From a virus, in IMG/VR virus record IMGVR_UViG_3300042564_002111, positions 1 through 44,667 of that record: DNA of 44,667 nt, one strand, 5' to 3'. The notes below the pieces were generated by a model. The model had not been told where the DNA came from and did not search any database. It was given only the letters and a program-made list of their open reading frames with translations. The position numbers were made by a program, and so were the translations under genes. Below are positions 25,064 through 43,740 of this stretch, piece by piece (positions within the stretch are counted from its first letter, which is position 1; every line of letters begins with the position of its first letter).

Positions 25064-28000
25064 ATGACAATAAATTACCTAGGCGATCAGGCTAAGAGTC
25101 AAGCAAAAAGAGTATCAAATACCGCAAATTCTGCTTTTGTTGCGGCAAATACTGCTGACCAAAAAGCAGTATCTGCTGGTGTATATGCTAATTCAGCCTA
25201 TGCATTCGCTAACACAATTGCAGGTGGTTCGGCCGCTGGCGCTTACCTACATGCCAACTCATCTTACATTCATGCTAATGCTGGATTCAATCAAGCAAAT
25301 ACTGCAACTCAATTTGCTCAGGCAGCTGGTGCCTATGCTAATGCATCATACTCTTTAGCCAACACAAAATTTGCATCGGCTGGTGGTACAATCTCTGGTG
25401 ATGTTATTGTTTCTGGTAATTTAACAATCAGTGGTGCAACAACAACAGTTACATCTGAAATTGTAAAGATTGCGGATAATACAATTGATTTAAACAGTAA
25501 CTTTGAATCAGGAACACCAACAGAAAATTCTGGTATTCGTGTCATTCGTGGTGATGAATTGCCTGTTCAATTCCGTTGGAATGAATCAGCTGACAATTGG
25601 GAGTTTACAAACGATGGTACAAACTTTCGTTACATAGCTTCTTTATCCGCAGAATCTTATGCTAATGGTGCATTTGGTGCCGCGAACTCCGCATCTTCAT
25701 ATTCTAATGGTGCCTTCTTGGCAGCCAATACTGCCGACCAAAAGGCAGTATCTGCTGGCTCATATGCCAACTCTGCGTATGCACAAGGCAATACATCATT
25801 TATTCACGCGAATGCGGCATACAATTTAGCAAACACTTTAGTATCATCAGCAATTGACTTGTATGCTAGACCGCACGCTAATGCGGCTTACATTCAGGCA
25901 AATACTAATGCCACAAATATAACTATCACCGGTAGTTATGCTAACTCAGCATATACTCAAGCAAACACCGCAACTACTAATGCTGCACAGGCTGACCAAC
26001 GAGCTGTAACATCTGGTGCATATGCAAATGCAGCTTTTGATGTTGCAAACTCCGCAAGTTCTTATGCCAATGGTGCTTTTGTTCAAGCAAATACTGGTAT
26101 CGTAAATTCTGCAGCTGCAAGTTCTTATGCCAATTCAGCGTTCTTACATGCCAATGCATCTTATCAATTGGCCAATACAATTGGTGGTGCTATTAGAGGT
26201 ACATTTACTGCTCGTAGTTACGTAGGAGATGGTTCAACATTAACATTTGCAGTTTCAAATACTGCATCTGAAAGTAGTATCATTGTTAGTGAAGACGGTG
26301 TTTTACAAGCTCCATTCAGTGACTACACAGTTTTAGGAACAACATTAACATTTAATCAAGCACCAGGCTCAAATGTAAATATACAAATTAGAGAACTTTC
26401 TGTTGCTGATACTGCTGCAAATGATAATGTTGCTAGAGCTTTAATTACTACAATTGGTACTCAAGTTAATAGTGCATATGATGCAGCCAATACGGCCGAT
26501 CAGAAGGCAGTATCTGCTGGTGTGTATGCGAATGCTGCGTATGCTTTAGCAAACACGCTCGTAACATCTTCTGTTGATACATTTGCAAGATCACAAGCAA
26601 ATGCAGCTTTTGATGCTGCCAATACGGCCGCACTGAATGCTTTATCTGCTGGTTCATACGCAAATTCTGGTTACACAACAGCCAATACAGCTGCAGTAAA
26701 TGCTCTGTCTGCTGGTTCATATGCCAACGCATCTTTTATAACTGCCAATACAGCTGCAGTAAATGCTCTGTCTGCTGGTTCTTATGCGAACGCTGCGTTT
26801 GCAGCTGCCAATACGGCCGATCAGAAGGCAGTAACATCTGGTGTATATGCTAATGCCGCACTACTAGCCGCAAATACCGCTGATGCAAAATCAGTAATTG
26901 CCAGTTCATATGCTAACAGTGCTTTCACAACCGCAAATTCTAAACTATCTTCTTCTGGTGGTACAATTTCTGGTGACTTGAATGTTACTGGCAACTTAAC
27001 TGTATCTGGCCAAATAACCACAATCAACACAGAAGTAATTGCTCTTGCTGATAACACGATTGATTTAAATAGTAATTTTGCAACAGGTACACCGACTGAA
27101 GATGCCGGCATTCGTGTTATTCGCGGTGATTCAACACCAACACAATTACGTTGGAATGAAACCAGTGACAAGTGGGAATTCACAAATGATGGTTCGTCTT
27201 ACAGTAATATTGGTTCGGCTGCGGCAGAATCTTATGCTAACTCCGCATATGCATTAGCTAATACGATAGCTTCTGGTTCGGCTGCTGGTGCTTATCTGCA
27301 TGCTAATGCCGCATATGCACAAGCCAACACATCATCTCTGTATGCATTGTCTGCTGGTGATTACGCCAACTCCGCATACATTCAGGCCAATTCTGGTTAC
27401 GTTGCGGCTAATTCTGCAAGTTCATATGCTAACTCCGCATTTACAGAAGCCAATTCGGCTTATGGTCAAGCAAACACTGCAACCACAAATGCATCATCTG
27501 CTAGTTCGTATGCCAACTCTGCATATCTACAGGCTAATACCGCAAATACTAATGCGGCTACGGCAGATCAGAAGGCAGTAACTTCGGGTGTGTTTGCTAA
27601 TGGTGCATATGGTTTTGCCAACTCAGCCAGTTCTTATGCCAATGGTGCCTTCTTGGCAGCCAATACGGCCGATCAACGAGCAGTAACTTCTGGTGTATTT
27701 GCTAATGCTGCATTTGGTGTCGCCAATACAGCTGACCAGAAAGCAGTAACTTCAGGTGTATATGCTAATTCTGCTTACGAACAAGCAAATACCGCAAACC
27801 AAACTGCAACTTCTGCTGGTGTGTATGCCAATGTAGCATTCACATCTGCTAACAACGCTTCAAATTACGCCAACTCTGCATACTCAACTGCTAACACAGC
27901 ACTAGTCAATGCTGGAACAGCCGATCAAAAAGCAGTAACTTCAGGTGTGTATGCCAACTCAGCATACGATCAGGCCAATACAGCAAACACAATTGCAACA

Positions 28001-31000
28001 AGTTCTGGTTCTTATGCTAACGGCGCTTTTGTTGCAGCCAACACATCTGACCAGAAGGCATCTTCGGCTGGTGATTATGCTAACTCTGCATATCTACAGG
28101 CTAATACTGCAAATACTAATGCGGCTACGGCAGATCAGAAGGCAGTAACTTCGGGTGTGTTTGCTAATGGTGCATACACTCAAGCGAATACGGCCAATAC
28201 TACTGCAACTTCTGCTGGCATATATGCTAACGCTGCCTTTACAGCTGCTAATAATGCAGTCGATACATGGGTTCGCAACGCTGCCAATTCAGCAAGTTCA
28301 TATGCTAACTCTGCCTTTGTTGCAGCAAACACTGCAAATATAAATTCTGCTTCGGCTGGTTCATATGCGAATTCTGCTTACACACAAGCAAATACTGGAA
28401 CAACTCTAGCTCAATCATCTTACGACTTGGCTAATTCATTATCTGGCGGTACTTCTACAGATGGTTTTGCTAGAAATGTTGCTAATGCTGCAAGTTCTTA
28501 TGCTAATAGTGCTTTTGCTGCAGCTAATACTGCCGATCAGAAAGCAGTAACGAGTGGTTTATACGCCAACTCTGCATACACTCAAGCCAACACGGCCTCA
28601 ACTGATGCTGGTTCAGCCAGTTCATATGCTAACTCAGCATTTACTTCTGCTAACACCGCAGACCAGAGAGCAGTCACATCCGGTTCATATGCTAACTCTG
28701 CATACACTCAGGCTAATACGGCTGAACAAAAAAGTGTCTCTGCAGGCTCTTATGCTAACTCTGCATATGCGTTAGCCAATACAAACACACTAAGTGCAGC
28801 TGCAGCTTTTAATACTGCAAACACTAAGTTTAATTCTACTGGTGGTACAATCTCAGGTGATGTAACTGTTACTGGCAATTTGGTTGTTTCTGGTAATGTA
28901 TTCAGTGTTGAGGCTACAAATCTAAGCGTTGAAGATAACATGATTTATCTGAATGCTAACAATACTGTTGCTAATCCAGATTTAGGTTTTGCAGGTAATT
29001 ATAATGATGGAACATATCACCACGCTGGTTTATTCCGTGACGCATCAGATGGTACATGGAAGTTTTTCTATAACTATGAACCAGAACCAGATGCATCGCC
29101 GTACATTGATACAACACATTCTTCATTTAGAATTGCCAATTTAACAGCTAATTTAATCACTGACATTGCTGTAATTCGTGGTTATGATCCAATCAATTAT
29201 ACGAATACAGCATATGCTCATGCCAATGCGGCGTTTGCTTTTGCCAACACAGTGTCAAGTGGTACTGCGGTTGATTCTTGGGTGCGGGACGCTGCAAATG
29301 CGGCTTCTAGTTATTCAAACAGCGCATACTTGGCAGCTAACACAGCAGACCAAAAAGGTGTAAGTGCTGGTGTATATGCCAATGCCGCTTATGCTCAATC
29401 TAATACTGTTGCAACAAATGTTTCTTCTGCCAGTTCATATGCCAATGGTGCTTTTGTCGCGGCTAACACAGCTGACCAACGAGCAGTAACTTCTGGTGTA
29501 TATGCTAACACAGCGTTTGATATTGCTAACTCAGCATCTTCATATGCCAATGGTTCTTTTGTGGCGGCTAACACAGCTGACCAACGAGCAGTAACTTCTG
29601 GTGTTTACGCTAACGCCGCTTACACACAAGCTAACTCTAATTTTACAAGTGCTGTCACTAAACTGTCAATTACATCTCCTGGCATGTACTATAGTGTTGA
29701 CCAATATTCAGGAAACAATCCTGCGATATATGTGTCTGCCGGTGAAACAATAGCATTCTTTTTAGATAATGTAACTGGTCATCCGTTCATGTTGCGTGAA
29801 TCAGCTGGCGGCACCAATTACAATACAGGTTTAACACACGTTAGTCCTAGTGGTGTAGTATCAACAGGTTCTAGCGCACAAGCTCAAATAAACGGCACCA
29901 TCTATTGGAAAGTTCCATTTGATCTGGTTGGTTTAACTTATGTGTATCAATGTCAAGTACACTCAGGTATGGTTGGCAACATTGTTATTCAACAACCTGT
30001 TTCTTTTGTTGCATCGAATACCGCATTAGCTTTAACTCAAGCCAATGCGGCCTTTGCAGCTGCTAACAATGCAGTAGATACATGGGTTCGTTCAGCTGCT
30101 AACTCAGCAAGTTCATATGCTAATGGTGCTTTTGTTGCAGCTAATACTGCTGACCAAAAAGCAATAACAAGTGGTTCATATGCCAACTCCGCATACACTC
30201 AGGCTAATACTGCAATCACCAATGCGGCTACTGCTGACCAACGTGCAGTAACTTCTGGTGATTATGCCAACTCTGCATATGCATTAGCAAATACAACTAA
30301 CTTAACTGCAACAAGTGCCGGCGTATATGCTAATGCAGCCTTTACAGCTGCTAACAATGCAGTAGATACATGGGTTCGCAACGCTGCCAATTCAGCTTCT
30401 AGTTATGCTAATAGTTCTTTTGCAGTTGCAAATACTGCAAATGTAAATTCTGTTTCTGCTGGTTCATATGCTAACTCTGCTTTTGCTGTAGCTAATACAT
30501 CAGACCAGAAAGCTGTAACATCCGGTGTTTACGCAAATGCATCATTTACATTAGCAAACACATCAAACTTAACCGCAACAAGTGCTGGTGTATATGCTAA
30601 CGCAGCCTTCGCAGCTGCCAACTCTGCCGGTTCATATGCTAACAGTTCATTCATTGTAGCAAATACTGCAAATATAAATTCTGTTTCAGCTGGTTCGTAT
30701 GCCAACTCCGCATACATTCAAGCAAATACTGGAACAATTTTAGCACAAGCATCTTACGACTTGGCTAATTCATTATCTGGTGGTACTTCTACGGATGGTT
30801 TTGCTAGAAATGCTGCCAACTCCGCTGGTTCGTATGCCAACTCTGCATATCTACAGGCTAATACCGCAAACACAACTGCAACAAGCGCTGGTGTTTATGC
30901 CAATGCAGCCTTTGTATCTGCTAATGCTTCAATCAACTTCATTGCAATTGGTACTGCAAACTCTGCAGCTTCATATGCAAATTCAAGTTATACACAAGCA

Positions 31001-33844
31001 AACACTGCTACTATAAATGCAGCTACTGCTGACCAACGTGCCGTAACATCTGGTGCTTATGCTAATTCAGCATATTTACACGCCAACGCAGCATTTGCAA
31101 TCGCCAACACAGGTGGCGGTGGTACTACTGACACATTTGCTAGAAATCAGGCGAATGCATCTTACAATCATGCTAATGCAGCTTTTGCAATTGCTAACAC
31201 TGGCGGTGGTGCTACAACTGACACATTTGCAAGAACTCAAGCTAATGCCGCATTTAATGCCGCAAATAACGCTTCTGGTGGTGCATTCAACTTAAGTGTT
31301 GCATTAGATTCTTTTGTTTCTGATGGAAGTAATACAACATTTACTTTATCAACAACACCAATAAATGAGAACTACACATTAATTACATTGAATGGTGTAA
31401 CGCAGCATAAGTCTGCATATACATTAACTGGCAATGTAATTACTTTTTCAGAAGCAGCTCCTGTAGGTTTGCCAATTGATGTAGTAACTTATTATGGCAC
31501 TAACGATGCTTCTGGTTCATATGCCAACTCAGCATACTTGGCCGCAAATTCCGCTGGTGTATACGCTAACGCCTCTTTCATTCAAGCAAATACTGCTGAC
31601 CAGAAAGCAACAAGTGCTGGCGTATATGCTAATGCAGCCTTTGCAGCTGCCAACAACTCAACAGATACTTGGGTTCGTTCAGCTGCAAACTCAGCAAGTG
31701 ATTATGCTAACAGTGCATTCATTACTGCCAACACAGCCAACTTAACTGCAATTTCTGCTGGTGTATATGCTAATGCAGCCTTTGCAGCTGCCAATAATGC
31801 AGTCGATACATGGGTTCGTAATGCGGCAAACAGTGCTTCGTCATATGCTAATGGTGCATTTGGTGTCGCTAACTCCGCTAGTTCTTATGCTAACGGTTCA
31901 TTTGTTCAGGCTAACACTGCTACTACGAATGCAGCTACTGCTGACCAGCGTGCCGTAACATCTGGTGATTATGCCAACTCAGCATACATTCACGCCAATT
32001 CATCTTATGCATTTGCAAACACTATTGCATCAGGTTCTGCGATTGACTCATGGGTTCGTTTGGCTTCTAATGCCGCGAGTTCATATGCTAACTCTGCTTA
32101 TGCCGCAGCCAATGTTGCAGATCAAAGAGCTGTCACATCAGGTTCTTATGCCAACTCCGCTTTCGTTGCAGCCAATACGGCCGATCAACGTGCAGTAACA
32201 TCTGGTGTATACGCTAATGCAGCATACACATTAGCTAACGCCAAGTTCTCCACATCTGGTGGTACAATCTCTGGTGATGTTAATGTTACAGGTAACTTGA
32301 CCATCACTGGTCAAACAACATACGCCAACACAACAACGGTACTTTTAGGTGATAACATTATCACCTTGAACGCCGACATTCCGGTGGCAACTGCACCGAC
32401 AGAGAATGCCGGCATTGAAGTGGCGCGTGGAAGTTCCACGAACACATCTATACTCTGGAACGAAACCACAGACAAGTGGACATTCACAAATGATGGTACC
32501 AACTACAGTAACATAGGTTCAGCAGATTCTGAGTCCTACGCCAATTCCGCATATCTTGCCGCAAACACTGCCGACCAACGTGCGGTAACTTCAGGCACAT
32601 TCGCTAATGCCGCATTTGGTGCCGCCAACTCCGCGTCTTCATATGCCAACGGTGCCTTCTTGTTTGCCAATACGGCCGATCAGAAAGCAGTAACAAGTGG
32701 CTCTTATGCTAATGCTGCATTCGGTATTGCCAATTCTGGATCCTCGTATGCCAACGGTGCTTTCACGGCAGCAAACAATAAACTGTCCACTTCTGGTGGT
32801 ACAATTACTGGTGACTTAACAATTAATGGCAACATCACAGTTTCTGGATGCACTGCAACCTTAACTGTTGAAACCTTAAGAGTACACGATTCTATTATCG
32901 ATGTTGCATGGGATGTAACTGGTGTACCTGCACTTGATGCTGGTGTTCGCGTTGTTCGCGGTGATTCTAATCCTGTACTGTTGAAGTGGAACGAATCAAT
33001 CGACAAGTGGACATTCACCAATGATGGCACAAATTATTCAAACATTGGTTCATCGGCCGCAGAAGATTATGCCAACACAGCATTTGCAACTGCCAATGCG
33101 TCTGCCAACTTCATAACAATTGGTACTGCAAACTCTGCAAGTGTTTATGCTAATGCCGCCTATTTACATGCCAATGCAGCCTTTGCGGCTGCTAATACTG
33201 GTGGCGGTGGTGGTACAACAGACACATTTGCTAGAAATCAAGCCAATGCGGCATTCACACAAGCAAATACTTCTATATCACTAAATGTTGCCGTTGATAG
33301 TTTCACTGGTGATGGTTCAAACACAGAATTTACATTAAGTGTAACTCCGTTCAACAAAAACTTCACTACCGTTACACTAGATGGTATTTCACAACACAAA
33401 TCTGCATACAATGTCAGTAGCAACATATTAACATTCTCTGGCGCACCTGATACTGGTGTTGCAATTGATGTTTCTGTTTTCTATGGTGGTTCTCAAGGTT
33501 CTGGACAATATCAGACCAGAAACTACACTGGTGACGGTACAACTGTAAACTACACAGTCTCCGCAAGAACAACTGCAAATAGTGTCATGGTAATGGAAAA
33601 CGGTATCGTACAAACACCAATCACCGACTATACATTGACTGGAACAACTCTAACATTTGTAATTGCACCGACAACTGGCACAAAGATTCAGATTAGAGAA
33701 ATGTCTTATGGCAGTGATGATGCAACTGCCGCTTCGTCATATGCCAACTCAGCATACATACAAGCTAACTCTGCATTTAGTACTGCAAACACAAAAGCAT
33801 CAACTGGTAAAGCTATAGCAATGGCAATAGTATTTGGATTCTAA
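25064..33844 (+). CDS. Giant repeat tail fibre 2 with cupredoxin-like domain (2926 aa)
   Basis: The largest gene in the window, starting 4 bases after the preceding gene. Most of it is ANSAY/ADQRAVTSG repeats. Embedded domains in order: GGTIS-type modules at ~25367-25641, ~26942-27216, ~28826-29206 (shared copy 2), ~32243-32520 and ~32779-33052; adhesin-like beta modules (GDGSTLTF, SDGSNTTF, GDGSNTEF, GDGTTVNY) at ~26201-26400, ~31286-31506, ~33274-33489 and ~33509-33711; and a cupredoxin-like domain at ~29656-30000 (residues ~1531-1645). Unlike fibre 1 it lacks the Mtd-N-type start and begins almost at once with the repeats. The C-terminus ends ...GKAIAMAIVFGF, close to fibre 1. Probably a second long trimeric fibre carrying several binding domains. 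Confidence 0.88.
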   Translation: MTINYLGDQAKSQAKRVSNTANSAFVAANTADQKAVSAGVYANSAYAFANTIAGGSAAGAYLHANSSYIHANAGFNQANTATQFAQAAGAYANASYSLANTKFASAGGTISGDVIVSGNLTISGATTTVTSEIVKIADNTIDLNSNFESGTPTENSGIRVIRGDELPVQFRWNESADNWEFTNDGTNFRYIASLSAESYANGAFGAANSASSYSNGAFLAANTADQKAVSAGSYANSAYAQGNTSFIHANAAYNLANTLVSSAIDLYARPHANAAYIQANTNATNITITGSYANSAYTQANTATTNAAQADQRAVTSGAYANAAFDVANSASSYANGAFVQANTGIVNSAAASSYANSAFLHANASYQLANTIGGAIRGTFTARSYVGDGSTLTFAVSNTASESSIIVSEDGVLQAPFSDYTVLGTTLTFNQAPGSNVNIQIRELSVADTAANDNVARALITTIGTQVNSAYDAANTADQKAVSAGVYANAAYALANTLVTSSVDTFARSQANAAFDAANTAALNALSAGSYANSGYTTANTAAVNALSAGSYANASFITANTAAVNALSAGSYANAAFAAANTADQKAVTSGVYANAALLAANTADAKSVIASSYANSAFTTANSKLSSSGGTISGDLNVTGNLTVSGQITTINTEVIALADNTIDLNSNFATGTPTEDAGIRVIRGDSTPTQLRWNETSDKWEFTNDGSSYSNIGSAAAESYANSAYALANTIASGSAAGAYLHANAAYAQANTSSLYALSAGDYANSAYIQANSGYVAANSASSYANSAFTEANSAYGQANTATTNASSASSYANSAYLQANTANTNAATADQKAVTSGVFANGAYGFANSASSYANGAFLAANTADQRAVTSGVFANAAFGVANTADQKAVTSGVYANSAYEQANTANQTATSAGVYANVAFTSANNASNYANSAYSTANTALVNAGTADQKAVTSGVYANSAYDQANTANTIATSSGSYANGAFVAANTSDQKASSAGDYANSAYLQANTANTNAATADQKAVTSGVFANGAYTQANTANTTATSAGIYANAAFTAANNAVDTWVRNAANSASSYANSAFVAANTANINSASAGSYANSAYTQANTGTTLAQSSYDLANSLSGGTSTDGFARNVANAASSYANSAFAAANTADQKAVTSGLYANSAYTQANTASTDAGSASSYANSAFTSANTADQRAVTSGSYANSAYTQANTAEQKSVSAGSYANSAYALANTNTLSAAAAFNTANTKFNSTGGTISGDVTVTGNLVVSGNVFSVEATNLSVEDNMIYLNANNTVANPDLGFAGNYNDGTYHHAGLFRDASDGTWKFFYNYEPEPDASPYIDTTHSSFRIANLTANLITDIAVIRGYDPINYTNTAYAHANAAFAFANTVSSGTAVDSWVRDAANAASSYSNSAYLAANTADQKGVSAGVYANAAYAQSNTVATNVSSASSYANGAFVAANTADQRAVTSGVYANTAFDIANSASSYANGSFVAANTADQRAVTSGVYANAAYTQANSNFTSAVTKLSITSPGMYYSVDQYSGNNPAIYVSAGETIAFFLDNVTGHPFMLRESAGGTNYNTGLTHVSPSGVVSTGSSAQAQINGTIYWKVPFDLVGLTYVYQCQVHSGMVGNIVIQQPVSFVASNTALALTQANAAFAAANNAVDTWVRSAANSASSYANGAFVAANTADQKAITSGSYANSAYTQANTAITNAATADQRAVTSGDYANSAYALANTTNLTATSAGVYANAAFTAANNAVDTWVRNAANSASSYANSSFAVANTANVNSVSAGSYANSAFAVANTSDQKAVTSGVYANASFTLANTSNLTATSAGVYANAAFAAANSAGSYANSSFIVANTANINSVSAGSYANSAYIQANTGTILAQASYDLANSLSGGTSTDGFARNAANSAGSYANSAYLQANTANTTATSAGVYANAAFVSANASINFIAIGTANSAASYANSSYTQANTATINAATADQRAVTSGAYANSAYLHANAAFAIANTGGGGTTDTFARNQANASYNHANAAFAIANTGGGATTDTFARTQANAAFNAANNASGGAFNLSVALDSFVSDGSNTTFTLSTTPINENYTLITLNGVTQHKSAYTLTGNVITFSEAAPVGLPIDVVTYYGTNDASGSYANSAYLAANSAGVYANASFIQANTADQKATSAGVYANAAFAAANNSTDTWVRSAANSASDYANSAFITANTANLTAISAGVYANAAFAAANNAVDTWVRNAANSASSYANGAFGVANSASSYANGSFVQANTATTNAATADQRAVTSGDYANSAYIHANSSYAFANTIASGSAIDSWVRLASNAASSYANSAYAAANVADQRAVTSGSYANSAFVAANTADQRAVTSGVYANAAYTLANAKFSTSGGTISGDVNVTGNLTITGQTTYANTTTVLLGDNIITLNADIPVATAPTENAGIEVARGSSTNTSILWNETTDKWTFTNDGTNYSNIGSADSESYANSAYLAANTADQRAVTSGTFANAAFGAANSASSYANGAFLFANTADQKAVTSGSYANAAFGIANSGSSYANGAFTAANNKLSTSGGTITGDLTINGNITVSGCTATLTVETLRVHDSIIDVAWDVTGVPALDAGVRVVRGDSNPVLLKWNESIDKWTFTNDGTNYSNIGSSAAEDYANTAFATANASANFITIGTANSASVYANAAYLHANAAFAAANTGGGGGTTDTFARNQANAAFTQANTSISLNVAVDSFTGDGSNTEFTLSVTPFNKNFTTVTLDGISQHKSAYNVSSNILTFSGAPDTGVAIDVSVFYGGSQGSGQYQTRNYTGDGTTVNYTVSARTTANSVMVMENGIVQTPITDYTLTGTTLTFVIAPTTGTKIQIREMSYGSDDATAASSYANSAYIQANSAFSTANTKASTGKAIAMAIVFGF
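28826..29206 (+). repeat. Shared fibre module, copy 2 of 3
   Basis: A near-identical protein copy of the ~125-residue module at 23188-23570, with small changes (FFYNYEPEPDASPYI, HHAGLFRD, IRGYDPI). It is evidence of module exchange between fibre genes. Confidence 0.85.
29656..30000 (+). other. Cupredoxin-like domain inside giant fibre 2
   Basis: A ~115-residue domain within giant fibre 2 with the look of a blue-copper (plastocyanin-type) fold: IYVSAGETIAFFLDN, then GHPFMLRE with His1573, a Gly-rich loop, YWKVPFDLVGLTYVYQC with Cys1630, then His1633 and Met1636 in the C-Q-V-H-S-G-M turn, ending IVIQQP. His, Cys, His and Met are the four type-1 copper ligands. In plastocyanin the last three are spaced Cys-x2-His-x4-Met, here Cys-x2-His-x2-Met, so the Cys and His match and the Met is two residues closer. 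Copper binding is inferred from sequence only. Confidence 0.7.
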
Positions 33845-33853
33845 GGAAATAAA

Positions 33854-34213
33854 ATGGCAAACCCAAACATAGTAGCGGTAACAACAATTAACGGAAACAC
33901 AACAGTTCAGTCAATCACCACAGCTGCAACTGCGATTGTTGAGAATGGTTCCAGTAGTGGTAAAGTATATAAGATTAACTGTTTAATTATTGCAAACATT
34001 GATGGTGTTAATGCATCGGACATTACTGTTGACTTATATAGAAACTCAACAGCATTTAAAATTGTTAATACTGTTTCTGTTGCCGCTGACAGTTCATTCA
34101 CTGCAATTGACAAAACATTGTCTCTGTACCTAATGGAGGGTGATGCACTACGTTTGACCGCTGGCAATAACAGCAGACTTCAAGGCGTATGTTCATTTGA
34201 GGAGATTTCTTAA
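33854..34213 (+). CDS. Small beta protein paired with giant fibres (type B)
   Basis: A 119-aa protein with AAGGA upstream, directly after giant fibre 2. It is the counterpart of the 108-aa protein at 24734: same size class, same order of beta segments, and the same C-terminal (E)EIS ending. Its stop overlaps the next start by one base (TAATG at 34211-34215), coupling it to the LamG adhesin. A fibre-cap or adaptor role is inferred. Each giant fibre gene is thus followed by one small protein of this family. Confidence 0.75.
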   Translation: MANPNIVAVTTINGNTTVQSITTAATAIVENGSSSGKVYKINCLIIANIDGVNASDITVDLYRNSTAFKIVNTVSVAADSSFTAIDKTLSLYLMEGDALRLTAGNNSRLQGVCSFEEIS

Positions 34214-37149
34214 TGTTTAATGGCGGTGTTCGTGGTAAAAGAGCAAAAGACGGTGTTGGTTTTTTATCAACAGCTGAACAATTTAACCAAAAAAGTTTTC
34301 TTGTTCCAACAGTAACTTCATTTTCGGTTACTGATGTTTCTTATGTTCCACTAGATGACACGGCCGTTGATACTGCAGGTGGTCAAACGATTGTTATTAA
34401 TGGTTCAGGTTTTGCTTCAGGTGCCACGATTCAAGTTGGTGCCACAACGATTGCTTCAGTAACATTTGTTGACCAAAGCAGATTGGCATTTACAGCACCA
34501 GCACTCAGTTCTGGCAGTTATACAATCTATGTCACAAACAATAATGGTGGTACAGGTATTTTAGTATCTGGTTTAGTTTATTCCGGACTACCAACATTCA
34601 CAACAACTGCAGGAACACTAGGCGCAGTCTACGAAACTGCAAACATCAATACTGCCATTGTTGCAACTGGTGATGCACCAATTACATATTCGGTGATATC
34701 AGGTACATTGCCGACTGGTGCAACACTAAATTCAAATGGTACAATCACCGGTAATGCGCCTGTCGATGGCTCAAGTACAACATATTCATTTACAATTCAA
34801 GCATCCGACGGACAATTACAGGAGTCAACACGTTCTTTCTCGCTAACTATTAATACCGATGTGTTGACTTGGGGTTTGGCTAACAATACAGTATATACAT
34901 TAGATGAAGCAGCAATGTCCAATGTGACTTTGACTGCAACAAGTTCGGCCAACGCAAACTCTGGTGTGACATTTGCAGCCAATACATTACCGACAGGTGT
35001 GTCTTTATCTGGTAATACAATATTTGGAACACCAACAGTTGAAGAAACAGTTTATTCTGAATTGACTGCTACTGCTACACAAACAGGAAGAACTGCGACT
35101 CGTTTTGTGTCTTGGACGGTTTCAGTATCCGAACCTTTCTTCAAATACGTGTCGTTGTTGCTAAAAGGTAATGGCACCAACGGCGCACAGAATAATACAT
35201 TTTTAGATGGTAGTACAAACAACTTTGCTATCACACGTAATGGTAATACTACTCAAGGTACATTTAGTCCATATGGTAGTAACTGGAGTAATTACTTTGA
35301 TGGTACTGGAGATTCCTTGACCGGAAATATGGCACAAATTATTAATTTTGGAACAAACGACTTCACTGTTGAGTTTTGGGTCAATTTTTCTAACGCGGCC
35401 GACACGGTATTTTATATCTTCGATGGTCGAGATTCTTCAACTCCCTCGGCATGGGCATTATATAGATCAGCAGGTGGCGCTTTGTCATGGTACAACGGCA
35501 CATCAAACTACTCAGCTTCATTGACTGATACAAACGTATGGACTCATGTGGCCTGGAGCAGAAGTGGAACTTCATTGCGTACATTTATCAATGGTGCTTT
35601 GACCAACACATTCACTGACACCACCTCATATACAGCAGTTCCGGCAACATCAACTATTGGATCCAGATTCAATGGAGTTGAATATATCAATGGTTATATT
35701 TCTAATTTTCGTATTGTAAAAGGCACCGCGGTGTATACTAGTGCATTTACTCCAAGCACTACGCCACTAACGGCAATAGCAAACACAAGTTTATTAACCT
35801 GTCAATCTAATCGTTTTATAGATAACAGTACAAACAACCTCACTATTACTAGGAACGGAGATGTTTCTGTACAACGTTTCAGTCCATTCAGTCCTACTGC
35901 TGAATACAGTACCAGCACAATCGGTGGGTCAGCATACTTTGATGGTACTGGGGATTACTTGTCTTACGCACAATCTGGATCAACATATCCTAGTCAAGTA
36001 TCTTTTTTAAATGGTTCAACAGGTACAGGAACTATTGAATTCTGGGTTTATCAAAATTCTAGTAGTCAGGGTGTTAACACATATGATTATCCACCGGTAA
36101 TTGCTGTTGGTAGTACTTATTTTAGTACAGGAATTACAACAGGTAATAAAGTAAGAGTTTATTGGTATATAGGTTCACCTACTTATTTTGACTCAACAGG
36201 AACTGTACCGTTTAGATCATGGGCACATGTAGCCATTGTTAGAAACGGAGCCACTATAACTATATACATAAACGGTGTATCTTCAGGGTCAACCGCATAC
36301 ACCGGTTGGTCTTGGGCAGCTACCGCCGACGGCTCTAATTTATATATAGGTTATACTAACCCCGGCGCCAATACGGTATATCTTACTGGATATGTAAGTG
36401 ATTTAAGGATTGTCAATGGCACTGCAAATTATACATCAAATTTTACACCGGCGACCACACCATTAACCTCAATCACAAATACACGATTGCTACTTAACAT
36501 GACCAACGCTGGTATTATTGATAACGCAATGATAAACAATTTAGAAACAGTTGGCAACACACAAATCTCCACAACGCAAAGTAAGTTTGGCGGAAGTAGT
36601 ATGCGTTTTGATGGTAGTGGAGATGGAATATTAATACCATACACTTCACTTCATCACTTGTCTGGAGATTTTACGATTGAGTTTTGGGTTTATTGGAATG
36701 GAGCCGCAGGAACTCATATGTTGATTAATAAAGGTGGTGGTGTTGGTATTGGATATGCGAGTTATGAAATTTACATTGACGGCACAACAGATAATGCTAG
36801 ATTTGCTGGAAGTTCCACGAACACAGGATATAACCTTGGTGGAGAATCTGCTACAGGTAACATGGGTATAGTGCCGACAAATACATGGACACATATAGCA
36901 TTGACTAGATCGGGTACTGCGTTTAGAGGTTTTGTAAATGGTGTTCAAGGATTTAGCCAAACATCATCCGTGATACCGTATGATACAAGTCCAAGAGGAT
37001 TACTAATTGGCTCTAGTTATGCCACCACGTGGGGTTCAACTCCTAACGGAACATTTAATGGTTACATAGACGATCTCCGCATCACCAAAGGTTATGCACG
37101 TTATACAAGTAACTTTACTCCACCAACCTCGACATTTAAAAACCGGTAA
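34213..37149 (+). CDS. Adhesin with IPT/TIG, Ig-like and three LamG domains
   Basis: A 978-aa protein. The N-terminal ~30 residues are basic (FNGGVRGKRAKDGVGF) and probably anchor it. Residues ~31-125 are an IPT/TIG-type Ig fold (VPTVTSFSVTDV ... GGQTIVINGSGF). Residues ~126-308 are two putative Ig domains of the He_PIG type (ITYSVISGTLPTGATLN, LPTGVSLSGNTIFGTP). Then come three concanavalin-A/LamG-like domains starting near residues ~310, ~527 and ~758, each with a (Y/R)FDG(T/S)GD motif, a (T/F)IEFWV or FTVEFWV strand, and a W-T/A-H-(V/I)-A motif. LamG domains typically bind glycans, so this is likely a host-surface adhesin. It overlaps the preceding small gene by one base and has no signal peptide, as expected for a virion protein. 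Confidence 0.85.
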   Translation: MFNGGVRGKRAKDGVGFLSTAEQFNQKSFLVPTVTSFSVTDVSYVPLDDTAVDTAGGQTIVINGSGFASGATIQVGATTIASVTFVDQSRLAFTAPALSSGSYTIYVTNNNGGTGILVSGLVYSGLPTFTTTAGTLGAVYETANINTAIVATGDAPITYSVISGTLPTGATLNSNGTITGNAPVDGSSTTYSFTIQASDGQLQESTRSFSLTINTDVLTWGLANNTVYTLDEAAMSNVTLTATSSANANSGVTFAANTLPTGVSLSGNTIFGTPTVEETVYSELTATATQTGRTATRFVSWTVSVSEPFFKYVSLLLKGNGTNGAQNNTFLDGSTNNFAITRNGNTTQGTFSPYGSNWSNYFDGTGDSLTGNMAQIINFGTNDFTVEFWVNFSNAADTVFYIFDGRDSSTPSAWALYRSAGGALSWYNGTSNYSASLTDTNVWTHVAWSRSGTSLRTFINGALTNTFTDTTSYTAVPATSTIGSRFNGVEYINGYISNFRIVKGTAVYTSAFTPSTTPLTAIANTSLLTCQSNRFIDNSTNNLTITRNGDVSVQRFSPFSPTAEYSTSTIGGSAYFDGTGDYLSYAQSGSTYPSQVSFLNGSTGTGTIEFWVYQNSSSQGVNTYDYPPVIAVGSTYFSTGITTGNKVRVYWYIGSPTYFDSTGTVPFRSWAHVAIVRNGATITIYINGVSSGSTAYTGWSWAATADGSNLYIGYTNPGANTVYLTGYVSDLRIVNGTANYTSNFTPATTPLTSITNTRLLLNMTNAGIIDNAMINNLETVGNTQISTTQSKFGGSSMRFDGSGDGILIPYTSLHHLSGDFTIEFWVYWNGAAGTHMLINKGGGVGIGYASYEIYIDGTTDNARFAGSSTNTGYNLGGESATGNMGIVPTNTWTHIALTRSGTAFRGFVNGVQGFSQTSSVIPYDTSPRGLLIGSSYATTWGSTPNGTFNGYIDDLRITKGYARYTSNFTPPTSTFKNR

Positions 37150-37477: not shown

Positions 37478-39232
37478 ATGCCAACACAGATACAATTAAG
37501 AAGAGGTAGTACTGTACAAACATCTACCTTTACTGGTGCCGCAGGTGAGATTACAGTAGATACCGATAAAAAAGTTGTTGTTGTACACGATGGTTCTTCT
37601 GCTGGCGGTGTTCCACTTGCACGTGCTAACCACACTCAATCCGCGTTTGATGCTGCCAACACTACAGTAACTGCCGCAGCAGCTGCTAGTTCGTATGCCA
37701 ACTCCGCATACTCAACGGCAAACACTGCGGCAACAAATGCAACCACGGCAGATCAACGTGCCGTAACATCTGGTGCTTATGCTAATGCGGCCTTTGCTGC
37801 AGCTAATGCCAAGTTCTCTGCAACCGGTGGTACTATTTCTGGTGACGTTGTTGTCACTGGTAATTTGAGTGTCTCTGGTAATGTATTCAGTGTTGAAGCG
37901 ACAAATCTGAGCGTTGAAGATAACATGATTTATCTTAACGCTAACAACACCGTAGCGAATCCTGATCTTGGTTTCGCAGCTAATTATAACGATGGCACAT
38001 ATCACCACACTGGTGTGTTCCGTGATGCGACTGATGGTACATGGAAGTTCTTTTATAACTATGATCCAGAACCAGATGCTTCAGCATATATCGACACAGC
38101 GCACGCTACATTTAGAATTGCTAACTTAACAGCCAATCTGATTACTGATGTTGCAACTATCCGTGGTTACGATCCGATCAATCACACAAATGTTGCATAC
38201 ACTCATGCCAATGCCGCTTTCGTGGCAGCCAATAACTCAACAGATTCTTGGGTTCGTGATGCCGCTAACTCAGCATCGTCTTATGCTAATGGTGCTTTTG
38301 GTGTTGCCAATACTGCTGCAACAAATGCGACCACGGCAGATCAACGTGCAGTAACTTCTGGTGTTTATGCCAATGCTGCATATGGTGTTGCCAACTCCGC
38401 CAGTTCTTATGCCAATGGTGCTTTCACACAGGCAAACTCTGCATTCAATAACGGAACCTCTGCGTCATCATATGCAAACGGTGCTTTCTCAGCTGCCAAT
38501 TCAGCCAGTTCATATGCTAATGCGGCCTTTGTTAAGGCTAACACAGGCGGCGGTGGTTCAGGACTATTCAACTCTTCAATCAATGTAGCAACTGGTTACG
38601 CAATCACAAGTTCTTTGGCAAATGCTGTAGTGTTTTCTGCCAATGCAACAATCTATTCGATTTATGTAACAAACATTGGTCCAGATGTTAATGCTGCCGT
38701 GACTGTAACTGGTGACTTTACACCAACAGGTTCTTCTGCAAACGTTTCGTTGTTTAGAAACATTCCAATCCCATCTCGTTCTTCCGTAGAGATGTTGAAA
38801 AAACCGCAAGTTGTTAAGGCAAACGACATTATCAAAATGCAATCGTTTGTCAATGGCACTGCTGCTTCTTCTAATGCACACGTAACTATTGTATACGAAA
38901 CCACTGCATTGTCTTCTTTTGATAGATCAGCTGCATTGGCTGGTACAGGTTACTCCGCACTTTATGCTGCAACAGGTAGTCCAGCAGTTATTGAGAGTAT
39001 CAAAATTGTCAACCAAGATACTGCATTTGGCAACCACGCAATCAGTATTATTTGGACAAACTCAGGCAATACGATACAAGGTTATATTGCCAAAGACATT
39101 ATTTTACCTGCAAACTCTACAATTGAATTGTGTGAGGCACCAAAATATCTGTATGCTGGTGATGAGTTAGATTTCTATTCATCATTTGCTAACGTAGTAT
39201 CGGTGTTCGTATCAGCTAAACGCACAGCATAA
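37478..39232 (+). CDS. Mtd-N-type tail fibre with duplicated C-terminal beta domains
   Basis: A 584-aa protein with AAAGGA upstream. The N-terminus (TQIQLRRGSTVQTSTFTGAAGEITVDTD ... VHDG) is the Mtd-N-type virion-attachment domain common on phage fibres. Short ANSAY repeats follow, then shared module copy 3 (~37811-38190), then more repeats to a Gly-rich linker (near 38548). The last ~220 residues hold two beta domains in tandem that resemble the small proteins at 24734 and 33854: one with RNIPIPSRSSVEMLKKPQVVKANDIIKM, one with KDIILPANSTIELCEAPKYLYAGDELDF. It is therefore a compact fibre whose tip fuses what the giant fibres carry as separate genes. Probably a host-recognition fibre. Confidence 0.85.
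   Translation: MPTQIQLRRGSTVQTSTFTGAAGEITVDTDKKVVVVHDGSSAGGVPLARANHTQSAFDAANTTVTAAAAASSYANSAYSTANTAATNATTADQRAVTSGAYANAAFAAANAKFSATGGTISGDVVVTGNLSVSGNVFSVEATNLSVEDNMIYLNANNTVANPDLGFAANYNDGTYHHTGVFRDATDGTWKFFYNYDPEPDASAYIDTAHATFRIANLTANLITDVATIRGYDPINHTNVAYTHANAAFVAANNSTDSWVRDAANSASSYANGAFGVANTAATNATTADQRAVTSGVYANAAYGVANSASSYANGAFTQANSAFNNGTSASSYANGAFSAANSASSYANAAFVKANTGGGGSGLFNSSINVATGYAITSSLANAVVFSANATIYSIYVTNIGPDVNAAVTVTGDFTPTGSSANVSLFRNIPIPSRSSVEMLKKPQVVKANDIIKMQSFVNGTAASSNAHVTIVYETTALSSFDRSAALAGTGYSALYAATGSPAVIESIKIVNQDTAFGNHAISIIWTNSGNTIQGYIAKDIILPANSTIELCEAPKYLYAGDELDFYSSFANVVSVFVSAKRTA
37811..38190 (+). repeat. Shared fibre module, copy 3 of 3
   Basis: The third copy of the NMIYLNANNTV module, slightly more diverged (NYDPEPDASAYIDTAHATF), located in the Mtd-N-type fibre. 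Confidence 0.85.
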
Positions 39233-39242
39233 GAGAAACACC

Positions 39243-41036
39243 ATGGCAATTAGTGGAATATTAACAAGTCAGAACCATTATAACCAGAGGGCTAGTGGTT
39301 TTTGGCCAACTAGTGTTTACGCATTGCCGACCATAGCAGTGGAATATTTGGTGGTAGCCGGCGGCGGCAGTGGAGTTTCAAAAACCAAAGGTGGCGGTGG
39401 TGGTGCCGGCGGCGTGTTAAATTCAACATTGGCAGCGGCATTGGCCACATCTTTTACCGTTACAGTAGGTGCTGGCGGAACAGGCGCCACGACTGTTGAC
39501 GCAGCAGGAAGAAAAGGAAATGATAGCGTATTTGCAACTATAACTGCAACTGGCGGTGGAGGAGGAGTAGCAAACTATGAAGAATTTCCTATTAACAATG
39601 GAAAAAATGGTGGGTCTGGTGGTGGTGGATCAACAAACTACGGTACTGGATCAGGCCAAGCCGGCGGTACTGGTATTGCTGGTCAAGGTAACAACGGAGG
39701 TGCCGGCTTTGGAAATGCTAGCAATGGTACAGGCGGCGGTGGCGGTGGTGCAGGTGCAGTAGGTGGTGCAGGTGTATCTAACGTTCCCGGAAATGGTGGC
39801 GCAGGATTATATTTTGCTCAATTCACAAACGCAGGTGCACCTTCGGGATATTATGGCGGTGGTGGCGGCGGGTCACATACCTATACTAACGGCGGCGGCA
39901 TTGGTGGTATTGGTGGCGGTGGTTCTCTTACAGATAATCCAAACCCAACTGGAGTAGGAACAATTAATACTGGCGGCGGCGGTGCCGGCGGCAAAGGTAC
40001 CGAGACCGCTCAAAACGGTGGTAACGGTGGATCCGGTATAGTTATTGTTCGTTATCTTGCTACATTTGCAGCAGCCACAGCAACCACTGGTTCACCAACA
40101 GTCACACTTGCTGGTGGTTATAGAGTGTATACTTTCACCAGTTCCGGTTCAATAACATTCACTGATGAGCTGGCACCACTGGTAAGTAAAAAAGCAATAT
40201 TTGGATATGGATATACCAGCGCCAATCTATCAATGACCAATTTAGTATCGGATACAGGTGTAGTTGCTACTGACACAGCCGGTGTAGGTACCATAAGAAG
40301 AGCGCTGGCGGCCGCAGGGTATGGAACCGATAAAGCTATATTTGGGTATGGTTTTGCTGCGCCCAACACAGCAATAACCAATCTAGTTTCAAATACAGGT
40401 GTGGTAGCTACCGATACTGCTGGGGTAGGCACTGCTAGATATGAAATTGCGGCTGCCGGTTATGGCACTGATAAAGCTATCTTTGGATATGGATATGGTA
40501 CTGCATTCACAGCAATAACCAATCTAGTTTCAAATACAGGTGTGGTAGCTACCGATACTGCTGGTGTTGGTACTGCTAGAAGTGCTTTGGCGGCTGCTGG
40601 GTATGGAACTGATAAAGCTATCTTTGGATATGGTACCGCGCCATCAGATTCTGCAATAACCAACTTAGTATCAAATACAGGTGTAGTAGCTACCAATACT
40701 ACTGGTGTTGGTACTGCTAGAAGTTCATTGGCGGCCGCTGGGTATGGAACTGATAAAGCTATATTTGGATATGGTCTCACCGGTGCATTATTGTCAATGA
40801 CCAACCTAGTATCAAACACTGGTGTAGTTGCTACTGACACTGCTGGTGTTGGTACAGCTAGAAACGGATTAGCAGCCGCGGGGTATGGGACTGATAAAGC
40901 TATATTTGGATATGGTAATGCAGGTACAAATACAGCAATAACCAATTTAGTATCAAACACTGGTGTAGTTGCTACTGATACTGCTGGTGTTGGTACTGCT
41001 AGACAATTACTTGCGGCCGCATCTTACGGTTCATAG
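39243..41036 (+). CDS. Adhesin: Gly-rich domain fused to six-blade kelch-like repeats
   Basis: A 597-aa protein. Its first ~25 residues end in an R-A-S-G-F-W-P-T-S-V-Y motif shared with the proteins at 41701 and 42693, a probable common anchor. Residues ~36-290 are a Gly-rich domain (VVAGGGSG, GGGGGAGGV, SGIVIVRYL) of the phage Gly_rich type, with many GGGG runs like the polyglycine core of gp38-type adhesins. Residues 317-597 are six ~47-residue repeats KAIFGYG-(variable loop)-TNLVSNTGVVATDTAGVGTAR-xx-LAAAGYGTD. The pattern I-F-G-Y-G, then N-T-G, then T-A-R-x-x-L-A-A-A resembles kelch blades (YvFGG ... D-x-x-T ... aRxghaaa), so a six-bladed beta-propeller is inferred. It is likely a receptor-binding tip. 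Confidence 0.8.
   Translation: MAISGILTSQNHYNQRASGFWPTSVYALPTIAVEYLVVAGGGSGVSKTKGGGGGAGGVLNSTLAAALATSFTVTVGAGGTGATTVDAAGRKGNDSVFATITATGGGGGVANYEEFPINNGKNGGSGGGGSTNYGTGSGQAGGTGIAGQGNNGGAGFGNASNGTGGGGGGAGAVGGAGVSNVPGNGGAGLYFAQFTNAGAPSGYYGGGGGGSHTYTNGGGIGGIGGGGSLTDNPNPTGVGTINTGGGGAGGKGTETAQNGGNGGSGIVIVRYLATFAAATATTGSPTVTLAGGYRVYTFTSSGSITFTDELAPLVSKKAIFGYGYTSANLSMTNLVSDTGVVATDTAGVGTIRRALAAAGYGTDKAIFGYGFAAPNTAITNLVSNTGVVATDTAGVGTARYEIAAAGYGTDKAIFGYGYGTAFTAITNLVSNTGVVATDTAGVGTARSALAAAGYGTDKAIFGYGTAPSDSAITNLVSNTGVVATNTTGVGTARSSLAAAGYGTDKAIFGYGLTGALLSMTNLVSNTGVVATDTAGVGTARNGLAAAGYGTDKAIFGYGNAGTNTAITNLVSNTGVVATDTAGVGTARQLLAAASYGS
40191..41033 (+). repeat. Tandem kelch-like blades, six copies
   Basis: Six repeats of about 47 codons (~141 bases). 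Bases 40367-40423 and 40508-40564 are identical over 57 bases, offset by exactly 141, which points to recent duplication or gene conversion. Variation is mainly in the loop after KAIFGYG and the two residues after GTAR. Confidence 0.9.
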
Positions 41037-41089
41037 AATTTAATCGACCTAAATATTTTTTTTACAACAACCTTTTTTATGGATAAATT

Positions 41090-41695
41090 ATGGCGTCAAA
41101 TCTAAACTCTGAATTCAACTATCGTTACCAAGTTATTGGTAGCACACCGTGGGAAAAAATTAAAACTCTACAAGGCTTCTTAGTCGGTAGAAAACGAGCA
41201 GCAGTACTTGAAGAATGTGCTGAACTTAAATATCAAGCTAAACTAGAAGAGTTGAATCATCTAAGAGAAATACCGGCAGCAAAGCACCTTATTTTAAATT
41301 TGCGGGCTGAAATTCTGGAATTAGAATCACACTTAGATGACCAAAAACATGCGTTCGAACTTAATCGTAAAGAGATTAAGATATTGGAAAAGTTAATGGC
41401 AGAACTTTATACTGAAGTTGAACCAACAAGACTTAAACATGAAGACGGCACACCTTATACAGATGATGAGATGTTTGAGGAAAATGCTAACTATGAATTT
41501 ACTGTAACTGTTGGGCGTGAAATTCAGGCAGAAATTATTGCCAATGGTAGACCAAGTCCTGCAAAATTGTTAAATGCAATGAGCAATCCACAAACACTAG
41601 AATCACTTAAATTAGTTGGCCTTATTCCAAATGAAACATCTTTGTTGACAAAGAACGATGTTGTTGGATTAATTGGTAACGATACAACCGAGTAA
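41090..41695 (+). CDS. Coiled-coil protein between adhesin genes, possible fibre chaperone
   Basis: A 201-aa, largely helical, charged protein with no repeats, signal or membrane segment, quite unlike its fibre neighbours. Residues ~35-105 (EECAELKYQAKLEELNHL ... LILNLRAEILELESHLDDQ) predict a coiled coil. The C-terminus (PSPAKLLNAMSNPQTLESLKLVGLIPNETSL) looks like a small helical domain. It lies between two adhesin paralogues, in a place where phages often encode fibre-assembly chaperones (T4 gp38/gp57A have such a role, but I see no sequence similarity). A chaperone role is therefore a positional guess; a structural coiled-coil protein is the alternative. Confidence 0.75.
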   Translation: MASNLNSEFNYRYQVIGSTPWEKIKTLQGFLVGRKRAAVLEECAELKYQAKLEELNHLREIPAAKHLILNLRAEILELESHLDDQKHAFELNRKEIKILEKLMAELYTEVEPTRLKHEDGTPYTDDEMFEENANYEFTVTVGREIQAEIIANGRPSPAKLLNAMSNPQTLESLKLVGLIPNETSLLTKNDVVGLIGNDTTE

Positions 41696-41700
41696 AACAA

Positions 41701-42669
41701 ATGAGTCTTTTAAACGACATTTTTTCGTTGCGTGGTATGAATGATCTGAGAGCAGATGGCTTTTGGCCGACTAGTGTTTATGTCTTAACAGTGGCCGCAA
41801 CTCAAAAGGCTATATTTGGTTATGGAGGCAATGCGAGTGGTACCAATGTGTCGATAACCAACCTAGTGTCGAATACAGGTGTTGTTGCTACTGATACCAC
41901 AGGTGTTGGTACTGCTAGATATGGATTGGCAGCTGCAACTTATGGCAATGATAAAGCTATATTTGGATATGGATCTTCGGTTGCTAATGGTGGAGAATCG
42001 TTAACCAATCTAGTATCAAACACTGGTGTAGTCGCTACAAATACTACTGGCGTTGGTACTGTAAGACTTGAATTGGCAGCTGCCGGTTACGGTATCGATA
42101 AAGCTATATTTGGATATGGTTACAATGGACCTAATTATTCAATGACAAACCTAGTATCAAACACTGGTGTAGTTGCTGCTGATGTTACTGGTGTTGGTAC
42201 TGCACGCCGGCAACCGGCTGCTGCAGGTTACGATTCAGACAAAGCTATATTTGGATATGGATTTGCTGGTGCTTATCTTGCAACGGTCAACCTAGTATCA
42301 AACACAGGTGTTGTTGCTAGCAATACCACAGGTGTTGGTACTGCTAGATATGGACTTGCTGCATCTAGGTATGGTACTAATAAAGCTATATTTGGATATG
42401 GTGAGGGTGCCGGCGGTAAGATATCTGTGACCAATCTAGTGTCCAATACAGGTGTTGTTGCTACTGATACTACTGGTGTGGGTACTGTTCGTATGAATTT
42501 AGCCGCTTCTGGATATGGTGCCGATAAGGCTATATTTGGACATGGATTAACTACTGTTGGAACATTAATAACTAACTTAGTGTCAAATACAGGTGTAGTA
42601 GCTACTGATACTGCTGCTTCTGGTACTGCTAGATATTTTCATGCAGCTGCTGGTTTTTCACTGTCATAA
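41701..42669 (+). CDS. Adhesin paralogue: anchor plus six kelch-like blades
   Basis: A 322-aa paralogue of the C-terminal part of the 597-aa adhesin, without the Gly-rich domain. Residues 1-35 carry the same anchor-type motif (R-A-D-G-F-W-P-T-S-V-Y). Residues 36-321 are six KAIFGYG blades with different loops (GGNASGTNVS, SSVANGGES, YNGPNYS, FAGAYLA, EGAGGKIS, LTTVGT). The last blade is the most diverged (FGHG; TAASGTARYFHAAAGFS). It starts 5 bases after the coiled-coil gene. The shared anchor suggests it attaches to the same virion site as its paralogues, competing with or adding to them. A host-binding role is inferred. Confidence 0.82.
   Translation: MSLLNDIFSLRGMNDLRADGFWPTSVYVLTVAATQKAIFGYGGNASGTNVSITNLVSNTGVVATDTTGVGTARYGLAAATYGNDKAIFGYGSSVANGGESLTNLVSNTGVVATNTTGVGTVRLELAAAGYGIDKAIFGYGYNGPNYSMTNLVSNTGVVAADVTGVGTARRQPAAAGYDSDKAIFGYGFAGAYLATVNLVSNTGVVASNTTGVGTARYGLAASRYGTNKAIFGYGEGAGGKISVTNLVSNTGVVATDTTGVGTVRMNLAASGYGADKAIFGHGLTTVGTLITNLVSNTGVVATDTAASGTARYFHAAAGFSLS
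41806..42666 (+). repeat. Tandem kelch-like blades, six copies
   Basis: Six copies of the blade repeat in the 322-aa adhesin, from Lys36. Scaffold residues (IFGYG, NLVSNTGVVA) are nearly invariant and loops differ in length and sequence. Confidence 0.88.
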
Positions 42670-42692
42670 ACAATAAACTAAAATAATAAAAA

Positions 42693-43496
42693 ATGGCAGA
42701 TACAAATATTACAGGACCACTTTGGGGTTACGAGTACCGAAGCAGAAGACTTGCTGGATTGTGGCCGACTAGTTTTTATGCGGCTGCAGCTGCAAATATT
42801 AGGGCTATTTTCGGATATGGATACAATATTTCAAATGCAACCGTATCAATGACCAACCTAGTATCGAACACAGGTGTTGTTGCTGCTGATGTTACTGGTG
42901 TTGGTACTGCAAGATATTATTTGGCGGCCGCAGGTTATGGAACTGATAAAGCTATATTTGGATATGGTTACAGCAGCAGCGCGGCCAGATCAATGACGAA
43001 TTTAGTATCAAACACCGGAGTTGTTGCAACAGATACGGCAGGAGTTGGTACTGCTAGAACGGGCCTAGCAGCTGCTGGTTATGGCACCGATAAAGCTATA
43101 TTTGCATATGGTGAAAACACCGCAATAACCAACCTAGTATCAAACACTGGGGTAGTTGCAACTGATACTTCTGCCTCAGGTAGTGTTAGAAACCAATGGG
43201 CCGGTGCTAAGTATGGCACCGATAAAGCAATATTTGGATACGGATTAACAACTTCAATAACTAATTTAGTGTCAAATACTGGTGTGGTTGCTACGGACAC
43301 TACTGGTGTTGGTACTGCTAGGTATGGACTAGCAGCTGCTGGATATGGAACTGATAAAGCTATCTTTGGTTATGGCCAAGCGGCCGACGTATCATCACTA
43401 ACGAACCTAGTATCAAACACTGGGGTAGTTGCAACTGATACCAGTGGTGTTGGTACTGCTAGAGCTGCTTTAGCAGCTGCATCTTACGGTTCATAA
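42693..43496 (+). CDS. Adhesin paralogue: anchor plus five kelch-like blades
   Basis: A 267-aa third paralogue. It carries the anchor-type motif (R-L-A-G-L-W-P-T-S-F-Y, residues ~19-29) and then five blades from residue 37. The third and fourth blades have very short loops (FAYGENTAITN; FGYGLTTSITN). With five blades instead of six, either one blade is missing or the propeller closes differently; this is the shortest family member. The last blade ends ALAAASYGS, like the end of the 597-aa adhesin (LLAAASYGS), which suggests a conserved closing strand. There is no clear ribosome-binding sequence; the upstream gap is AT-rich. Confidence 0.82.
   Translation: MADTNITGPLWGYEYRSRRLAGLWPTSFYAAAAANIRAIFGYGYNISNATVSMTNLVSNTGVVAADVTGVGTARYYLAAAGYGTDKAIFGYGYSSSAARSMTNLVSNTGVVATDTAGVGTARTGLAAAGYGTDKAIFAYGENTAITNLVSNTGVVATDTSASGSVRNQWAGAKYGTDKAIFGYGLTTSITNLVSNTGVVATDTTGVGTARYGLAAAGYGTDKAIFGYGQAADVSSLTNLVSNTGVVATDTSGVGTARAALAAASYGS
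42801..43493 (+). repeat. Tandem kelch-like blades, five copies
   Basis: Five copies of the blade repeat in the 267-aa adhesin, with loops of roughly 3-10 residues between FGYG and TNLVSNTG. Confidence 0.88.
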
Positions 43497-43524: not shown

Positions 43525-43740
43525 ATGATAGACTTAGAAAACATGCCTGAACCAACAGCAGAAGAAATTGCACAAGCAAGAGAAAACGCATTTAATGCTG
43601 AACGACCAGCATCATGGGTTTGGAACGAAGCAGCAGTATCATATGTTGCACCAATAGCAATCCCGTCTGATGGTTATCCATATTTGTGGGATGAAGCTAC
43701 AACTAATTGGGTACCATTTCCAGATTTCCCTAGAAGTTAA
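43525..43740 (+). CDS. Small Trp-rich protein next to adhesins
   Basis: A 71-aa protein with AAAGG upstream. It has two repeated Trp/aromatic motifs, ASWVWNEAAVSYVAPIAIP and YPYLWDEATTNWVPF (W-N/D-E-A-x-x-x-Y/W-V-x-P/F), after a Glu/Ala-rich helical start. Similar short W-x-E-x-x-x-x-W proteins are common near tail fibres in T4-like aquatic phages. Its role is unknown; by position it may aid fibre or adhesin assembly or cap the adhesins. The short tandem motif suggests two small beta hairpins. Confidence 0.72.
   Translation: MIDLENMPEPTAEEIAQARENAFNAERPASWVWNEAAVSYVAPIAIPSDGYPYLWDEATTNWVPFPDFPRS

Follow-up and report, generated by a model that had tools for sequence, protein, structure and literature searches.

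Three related genes on the + strand of the window (the whole 44,667-nt stretch of DNA analysed here) encode modular repeat proteins. Gene 1 (39243–41036, 597 aa) is formed by an N-terminal anchor that ends in GFWPTSVY (39243–39320), a glycine-rich domain (Gly_rich_2, PF21722, E = 1.2e-23; residues 30–271, 39330–40055) and a predicted propeller of six 47-residue blades (40191–41033), each with variable columns at 8–14 and 38–39. Gene 2 (41701–42669, 322 aa) joins an anchor to a six-bladed propeller (41806–42666), and gene 3 (42693–43496, 267 aa) joins one to five blades (42801–43493). The anchor common to all three reads G-[FL]-W-P-T-S-x-Y; the blade unit measures 44–49 aa and starts with [KR]AIF[GA][YH]G. 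At the DNA level there is a 125-nt repeat present in 17 copies at a spacing of ~141 nt, and the anchor forms a separate 40-nt repeat at 39280, 41741 and 42739. With 17 copies plus a distinct anchor repeat, the pattern lies far beyond chance. Open reading frames and DNA repeats both agree with an earlier note on this DNA that described three genes with the same anchor and 6, 6 and 5 blades, but the three are not contiguous: an unrelated 201-aa companion gene (41090–41695, +), bearing an NSEFNYRYQV motif and looking helical or coiled-coil, separates genes 1 and 2. In gene 1, unlike the anchor-then-blades layout of that note, the Gly_rich_2 domain splits the anchor from the blades. All three copies are intact and co-oriented.

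The carrier is a freshwater-type tailed phage. The window covers a T4-like tail region, with baseplate wedge genes, long fibres, laminin-G and Mtd_N proteins and then a neck gene, and the propeller cluster is placed between the fibre/baseplate genes and the T4-like neck gene; gp6 is nearest to those of Pelagibacter and Methylophilales phages (43%). Directly before the neck gene stands a 71-aa ORF (43525–43740, +) that matches phrog_7759, a family of unknown function. Three further candidate adhesins are present: a 978-aa laminin-G protein (34213–37149) with a putative Ig and three laminin-G domains, which is a probable adhesin, a 584-aa Mtd_N protein (37478–39232) and a fibre-like protein (14637–17834). 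A 2926-aa ORF (25064–33844) consists mainly of short Ala/Asn-rich repeats (SYANxAFxxANTA) with small inserted domains and is probably a very long fibre stalk; similar repeats also occur in the 584-aa ORF.

Predicted fold and blade number

AF2 modelling of the gene 1 propeller with 139 aligned relatives predicts, with high confidence, a closed six-bladed ring of kelch fold (pLDDT 95.4, pTM 0.91); of the five models, a pair reached confident scores (95.4 and 94.8) and three scored 71, 50 and 48. Full gene 2, modelled from 64 aligned sequences, gave low confidence (pLDDT 49), and six-bladed kelch domains still ranked first when this model was searched with Foldseek. For the gene 1 model, the best solved matches are the kelch domains of KLHL12 (TM 0.83) and Keap1 (TM 0.81), the kelch matches having E values of about 1e-12, down to 4e-13, at 13–16% identity. 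The chain starts at a blade's second strand (KAIFGYG) and ends after its first (AAAxY), with the B, C and D strands at the N terminus and the A strand at the C terminus; by strand order and in the AF2 model, the C-terminal strand completes blade 1. Closure by a C-terminal strand has been described for the kelch domains of Keap1 (PMC5339396) and of KLHL20, in which the BC and DA loops shape the substrate-binding surface (PMC6720452).

Among 147 distinct complete ORFs of the family, 134 have six blades, three have 12 and two have 18 (139/147 with 6, 12 or 18), and the 12- and 18-blade proteins have a linker after every sixth blade; the other ORFs look broken, split or short of one blade. A closed ring demands a count fixed at multiples of six and an open solenoid would not give it, which rules out an open solenoid or fibre of arbitrary repeat number. 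The earlier note had proposed a small kelch-like β-propeller and named structure prediction as the check, with any fold other than a closed propeller counting against it. The predicted structure is a closed six-bladed ring, and AF2, Foldseek and blade numbers of 6, 12 and 18 together support the predicted fold.

The kelch parallel does not extend to the sequence family. For 139 members, the listed Pfam matches (E ≤ 0.1) include no kelch model, PF01344 was not found in the window, and an hhalign comparison with E. coli NanM did no better than shuffles. With no Pfam kelch match and no hhalign signal beyond shuffles, kelch homology by sequence is not supported; support extends to the fold alone. 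The kelch GG doublet is absent, G-Y-G standing in its place, and no scaffold column holds a conserved Trp. Photorhabdus PLL/PHL lectin propellers, a seven-bladed family, show weak profile similarity (best E = 0.004, with low per-stretch scores).

The five-blade state of gene 3 is atypical; a few other genes with five blades occur. One contig (L001) is identical to the window between 39459 and 43240 and once more downstream, except for one extra 144-bp blade, and its version of gene 3 has six blades; a 20-bp homology (43221–43240, +) lies at the junction of the missing blade. Because L001 otherwise equals the window, the five blades reflect either the loss of one unit by deletion or an assembly collapse, the two being indistinguishable here. 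The HNWD repeat domains of Podospora anserina are wrongly rebuilt in Illumina assemblies (PMC12222747).

Loop variability and its origin

We compared 840 blades; the 140 propellers that supplied them are all <90% identical to one another. Nine columns, 8–14 (after GYG) and 38–39 (after TAR), have entropies of 2.7–3.7 bits (mean 3.2), against a mean of 0.59 for the other columns. In the bottom loops, SNTG and Y-G-x-D stay near-invariant, with columns 44 and 47 varying moderately. Tyr (22%), Ser, Gly and Asn are frequent at the variable positions 8, 38 and 39. Retrieval by scaffold patterns could favour conserved scaffolds; we therefore repeated the test on 31 propellers fetched only via the companion gene, whose variability profile is the same, ruling out retrieval bias as the cause of scaffold conservation. 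The claim of the earlier note that variation is concentrated in the loop after GYG and the residues after GTAR thus holds in the family and in an independent set, entropy being high in nine loop columns and not spread evenly, the outcome which that note had set against its claim. In an antiparallel blade, strand B ends on the side where strand A starts, so columns 8–14 and 38–39 should share one face of the predicted ring.

Between close relatives, codon positions 1 and 2 of columns 38–39 differ by 0.50–0.60, four-fold sites by 0.15–0.23 and scaffold positions 1 and 2 by 0.05–0.10. Amino-acid-changing differences in the variable columns exceed synonymous ones about 2–3-fold between near relatives, an approximate effect size because the pairs counted (11 between 0.02 and 0.25 four-fold divergence, non-independent) are few and related. 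In near-identical alleles (L012, L013, L019 and L021), the main difference is a loop residue, an indel in a loop or a residue right after TAR. Codon comparison therefore indicates that the loop columns are under diversifying selection and change faster than neutral DNA.

Diversification appears to proceed by ordinary mutation, selection and recombination. The reverse transcriptase PF00078 was found in 0/22 viral records (possibly fragments) and was not found in the window, and the adenine-template (AAY) codon bias is absent: variable codons use the third base much as the scaffold does and include many NNA codons. On these two results DGR diversification is rejected. Blades within a gene are mostly 71–84% identical in DNA and their scaffold is heavily diverged at synonymous sites, which disfavours recent amplification of one blade. 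Shuffling of intact blades between phages is rejected for lack of any identical blade protein in two different propellers (840 blades). The suggestion, made in the same note, that three versions would serve to switch host range finds no support in these results. With no reverse transcriptase found and every copy intact and facing the same way, display of the versions together is likelier than switching between them.

Family distribution, proposed exchangeable heads and the companion

Viral contigs hold 180 relatives in one scan and at least 539 in a profile-guided scan. A search of 84,980 bacterial and archaeal genomes gave a single match, on a 168-kb contig (BOLD01000008.1, L084) of the Oligoflexia MAG BroJett040 that carries both propeller and companion; this contig may be a phage binned with the MAG. 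No significant propeller match came from 50,697 phage records (one row returned, E = 8), and direct phage-database matches were none for the propeller and none for the companion. Copies per genome reach eight propellers in a 171-kb contig and seven in a 155-kb contig. The 524-kb contig IMGVR_UViG_3300027749_002876 has 17 propeller matches and is perhaps a composite assembly, because it has segments in common with the 171-kb contig; its count is therefore set aside here.

Relatives differ in what accompanies the propeller. In L075 it is fused to Mtd_N (the major tropism determinant N-terminal domain), and in others to laminin-G or fn3. Single genes in L074 (4936–6897) and L151 (3942–5915) join a second repeat type (YGNGLFVAVAxDGTNRVMTSTDGITWTARSA), probably another propeller, to the kelch-fold propeller. 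A gene that looks Dps/ferritin-like in sequence lies directly upstream of propeller genes in several contigs (L050, 5551–5988, and relatives).

The companion family (~200 residues, with NSEFNYRYQV and GFLxGRxRAA motifs) is conserved and stands beside propellers in 119 loci. Retrieval by the companion alone finds a propeller within 4 kb in 71/80 loci and none within 4 kb in 9/80; in several of the nine exceptions the neighbour has, by eye, a propeller-type anchor with a glycine-rich or LamG-like head. The companion has no convincing relative in Pfam, PHROG, NCBIfam or the PDB. One companion per cluster and an apparent helical coiled-coil make-up (by eye) suggest a part in assembly, and it is probably a shared assembly factor of the adhesins.

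Putative receptor-binding heads and their known counterparts

Tail-region context, fusions to Mtd_N, laminin-G and fn3, and up to 8 propellers per contig point to exchangeable heads shown in parallel. We consider it likely that the products of the three genes are alternative receptor-binding heads which a T4-like phage displays together, and the large, undescribed propeller family as a whole probably grips host surfaces. The short N-terminal anchor (GxWPTSxY) would attach each protein to tail or fibre, and would be followed by an optional spacer domain and then by a six-bladed kelch-fold propeller closed by its C-terminal strand. Scaffold and bottom loops (YGTD, SNTG) are kept nearly constant. 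The top face would be formed, in each of the six blades, by the BC loop (after GYG) and the blade start (after TAR); every blade adds ~9 hypervariable residues to it, and host glycans or proteins presumably make contact there. This face would be diversified under positive selection by point substitutions, by small indels in the loops and by whole-blade loss or gain, and whole heads (propeller, laminin-G or glycine-rich) would be exchanged on a fixed anchor, with the adjacent ~200-aa companion as the probable shared assembly factor.

Propellers on the virion might instead bind something other than the infection receptor, for example by attaching reversibly to glycans of the host or the environment, and the true receptor-binding protein would then be encoded elsewhere. 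The other candidate adhesins in the window (34213–37149, 37478–39232 and 14637–17834) and the weak similarity to PLL/PHL lectins speak for this reading, which we hold to be unlikely: diversifying selection on the loops, like the presence of several versions in one genome, suggests specificity towards varying hosts, although glycan binding would show this too. Antigenic escape would likewise yield a constant scaffold with exposed variable loops, and the loops could in that case serve to evade host surface defences, protist grazers or outer-membrane decoys and not to bind. Other presumably exposed loops are spared, however (SNTG and Y-G-x-D being near-invariant), and variation is confined to the face that kelch domains use for ligands (PMC6720452), so that escape is highly improbable.

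The least probable of the readings weighed here makes the propellers intracellular, as inhibitors or scaffolds produced during infection. Some contigs do have DNA polymerase-, TilS- or Dps-like ORFs (by eye) near the cluster, but the cluster of the window lies within the tail/neck module, its relatives are fused to Mtd_N, laminin-G and fn3, and its anchors are held in common with other adhesin-like heads.

Propeller heads and variable adhesins are each already known in phages. We give an even chance to the family being an antibody-like phage scaffold independent of reverse transcriptase: a fixed kelch-fold frame, one face of which bears ~54 hypervariable residues, used as an interchangeable head on many anchors, present in up to 8 versions in a genome and served by a dedicated, undescribed companion. 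Such a scaffold would be abundant in aquatic viromes, while phage isolate records yielded none. By uniting a near-fixed six-bladed frame with strongly diversified loops and several co-encoded versions, and by doing so without a retroelement, a widespread family of this kind would be nature's equivalent of designed binding scaffolds. It becomes possible to test how uncultured aquatic phages recognise their hosts, as the presumed specificity residues can be listed directly, and two protein families, propeller and companion, are absent from Pfam, PHROGs and NCBIfam.

The kelch domains of BTB-kelch proteins (Keap1, KLHL12 and KLHL20) share the predicted six-bladed fold, the C-terminal closure and the use of BC and DA loops as the variable or binding face. 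The phage propellers differ from them: identity is ~14%, the kelch GG doublet and Trp are missing, no Pfam kelch model matches, the blades are near-identical and the anchors are those of phages. Propellers of phi11 Gp45 (five blades), PRD1 P2 (a distorted five) and phiKZ gp131C (seven) are (putative) host-recognition domains (PMC4901313), as we propose for the present proteins; they have other blade numbers and sequences and occur as single versions, and no repeat pattern of constant scaffold and variable loops is described for them in PMC4901313. DGR-diversified adhesins such as Mtd and the tentaclins (PMC10743442) also combine a fixed scaffold with variable binding residues and a role in host range, whereas the propellers have no reverse transcriptase that we could find and no adenine-type codon bias.

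In the HNWD WD40 sensors of P. anserina (het-d and het-e), near-identical repeats carry a few hypervariable codons under diversifying selection on the recognition face (PMC12222747). Unit-number polymorphism, hypervariable recognition-face codons and unreliable short-read assembly of the repeats are common to both systems. The sensors are of WD40 and not kelch fold, act in fungal immunity, have no fixed blade number and keep their repeats alike by concerted evolution, whereas the phage blades are mostly 71–84% identical in DNA and their scaffold looks held by purifying selection. Kelch-annotated proteins of phages BcepSaruman, CBB and PS119XW and virion proteins of PhiPA3 are alike in kelch-like fold, at only ~11–22% identity; among the kelch-like phage proteins compared, A0A6J7XFV6 ('uncharacterized', from an uncultured Caudovirales phage), at 73% identity, is a real member of the family.
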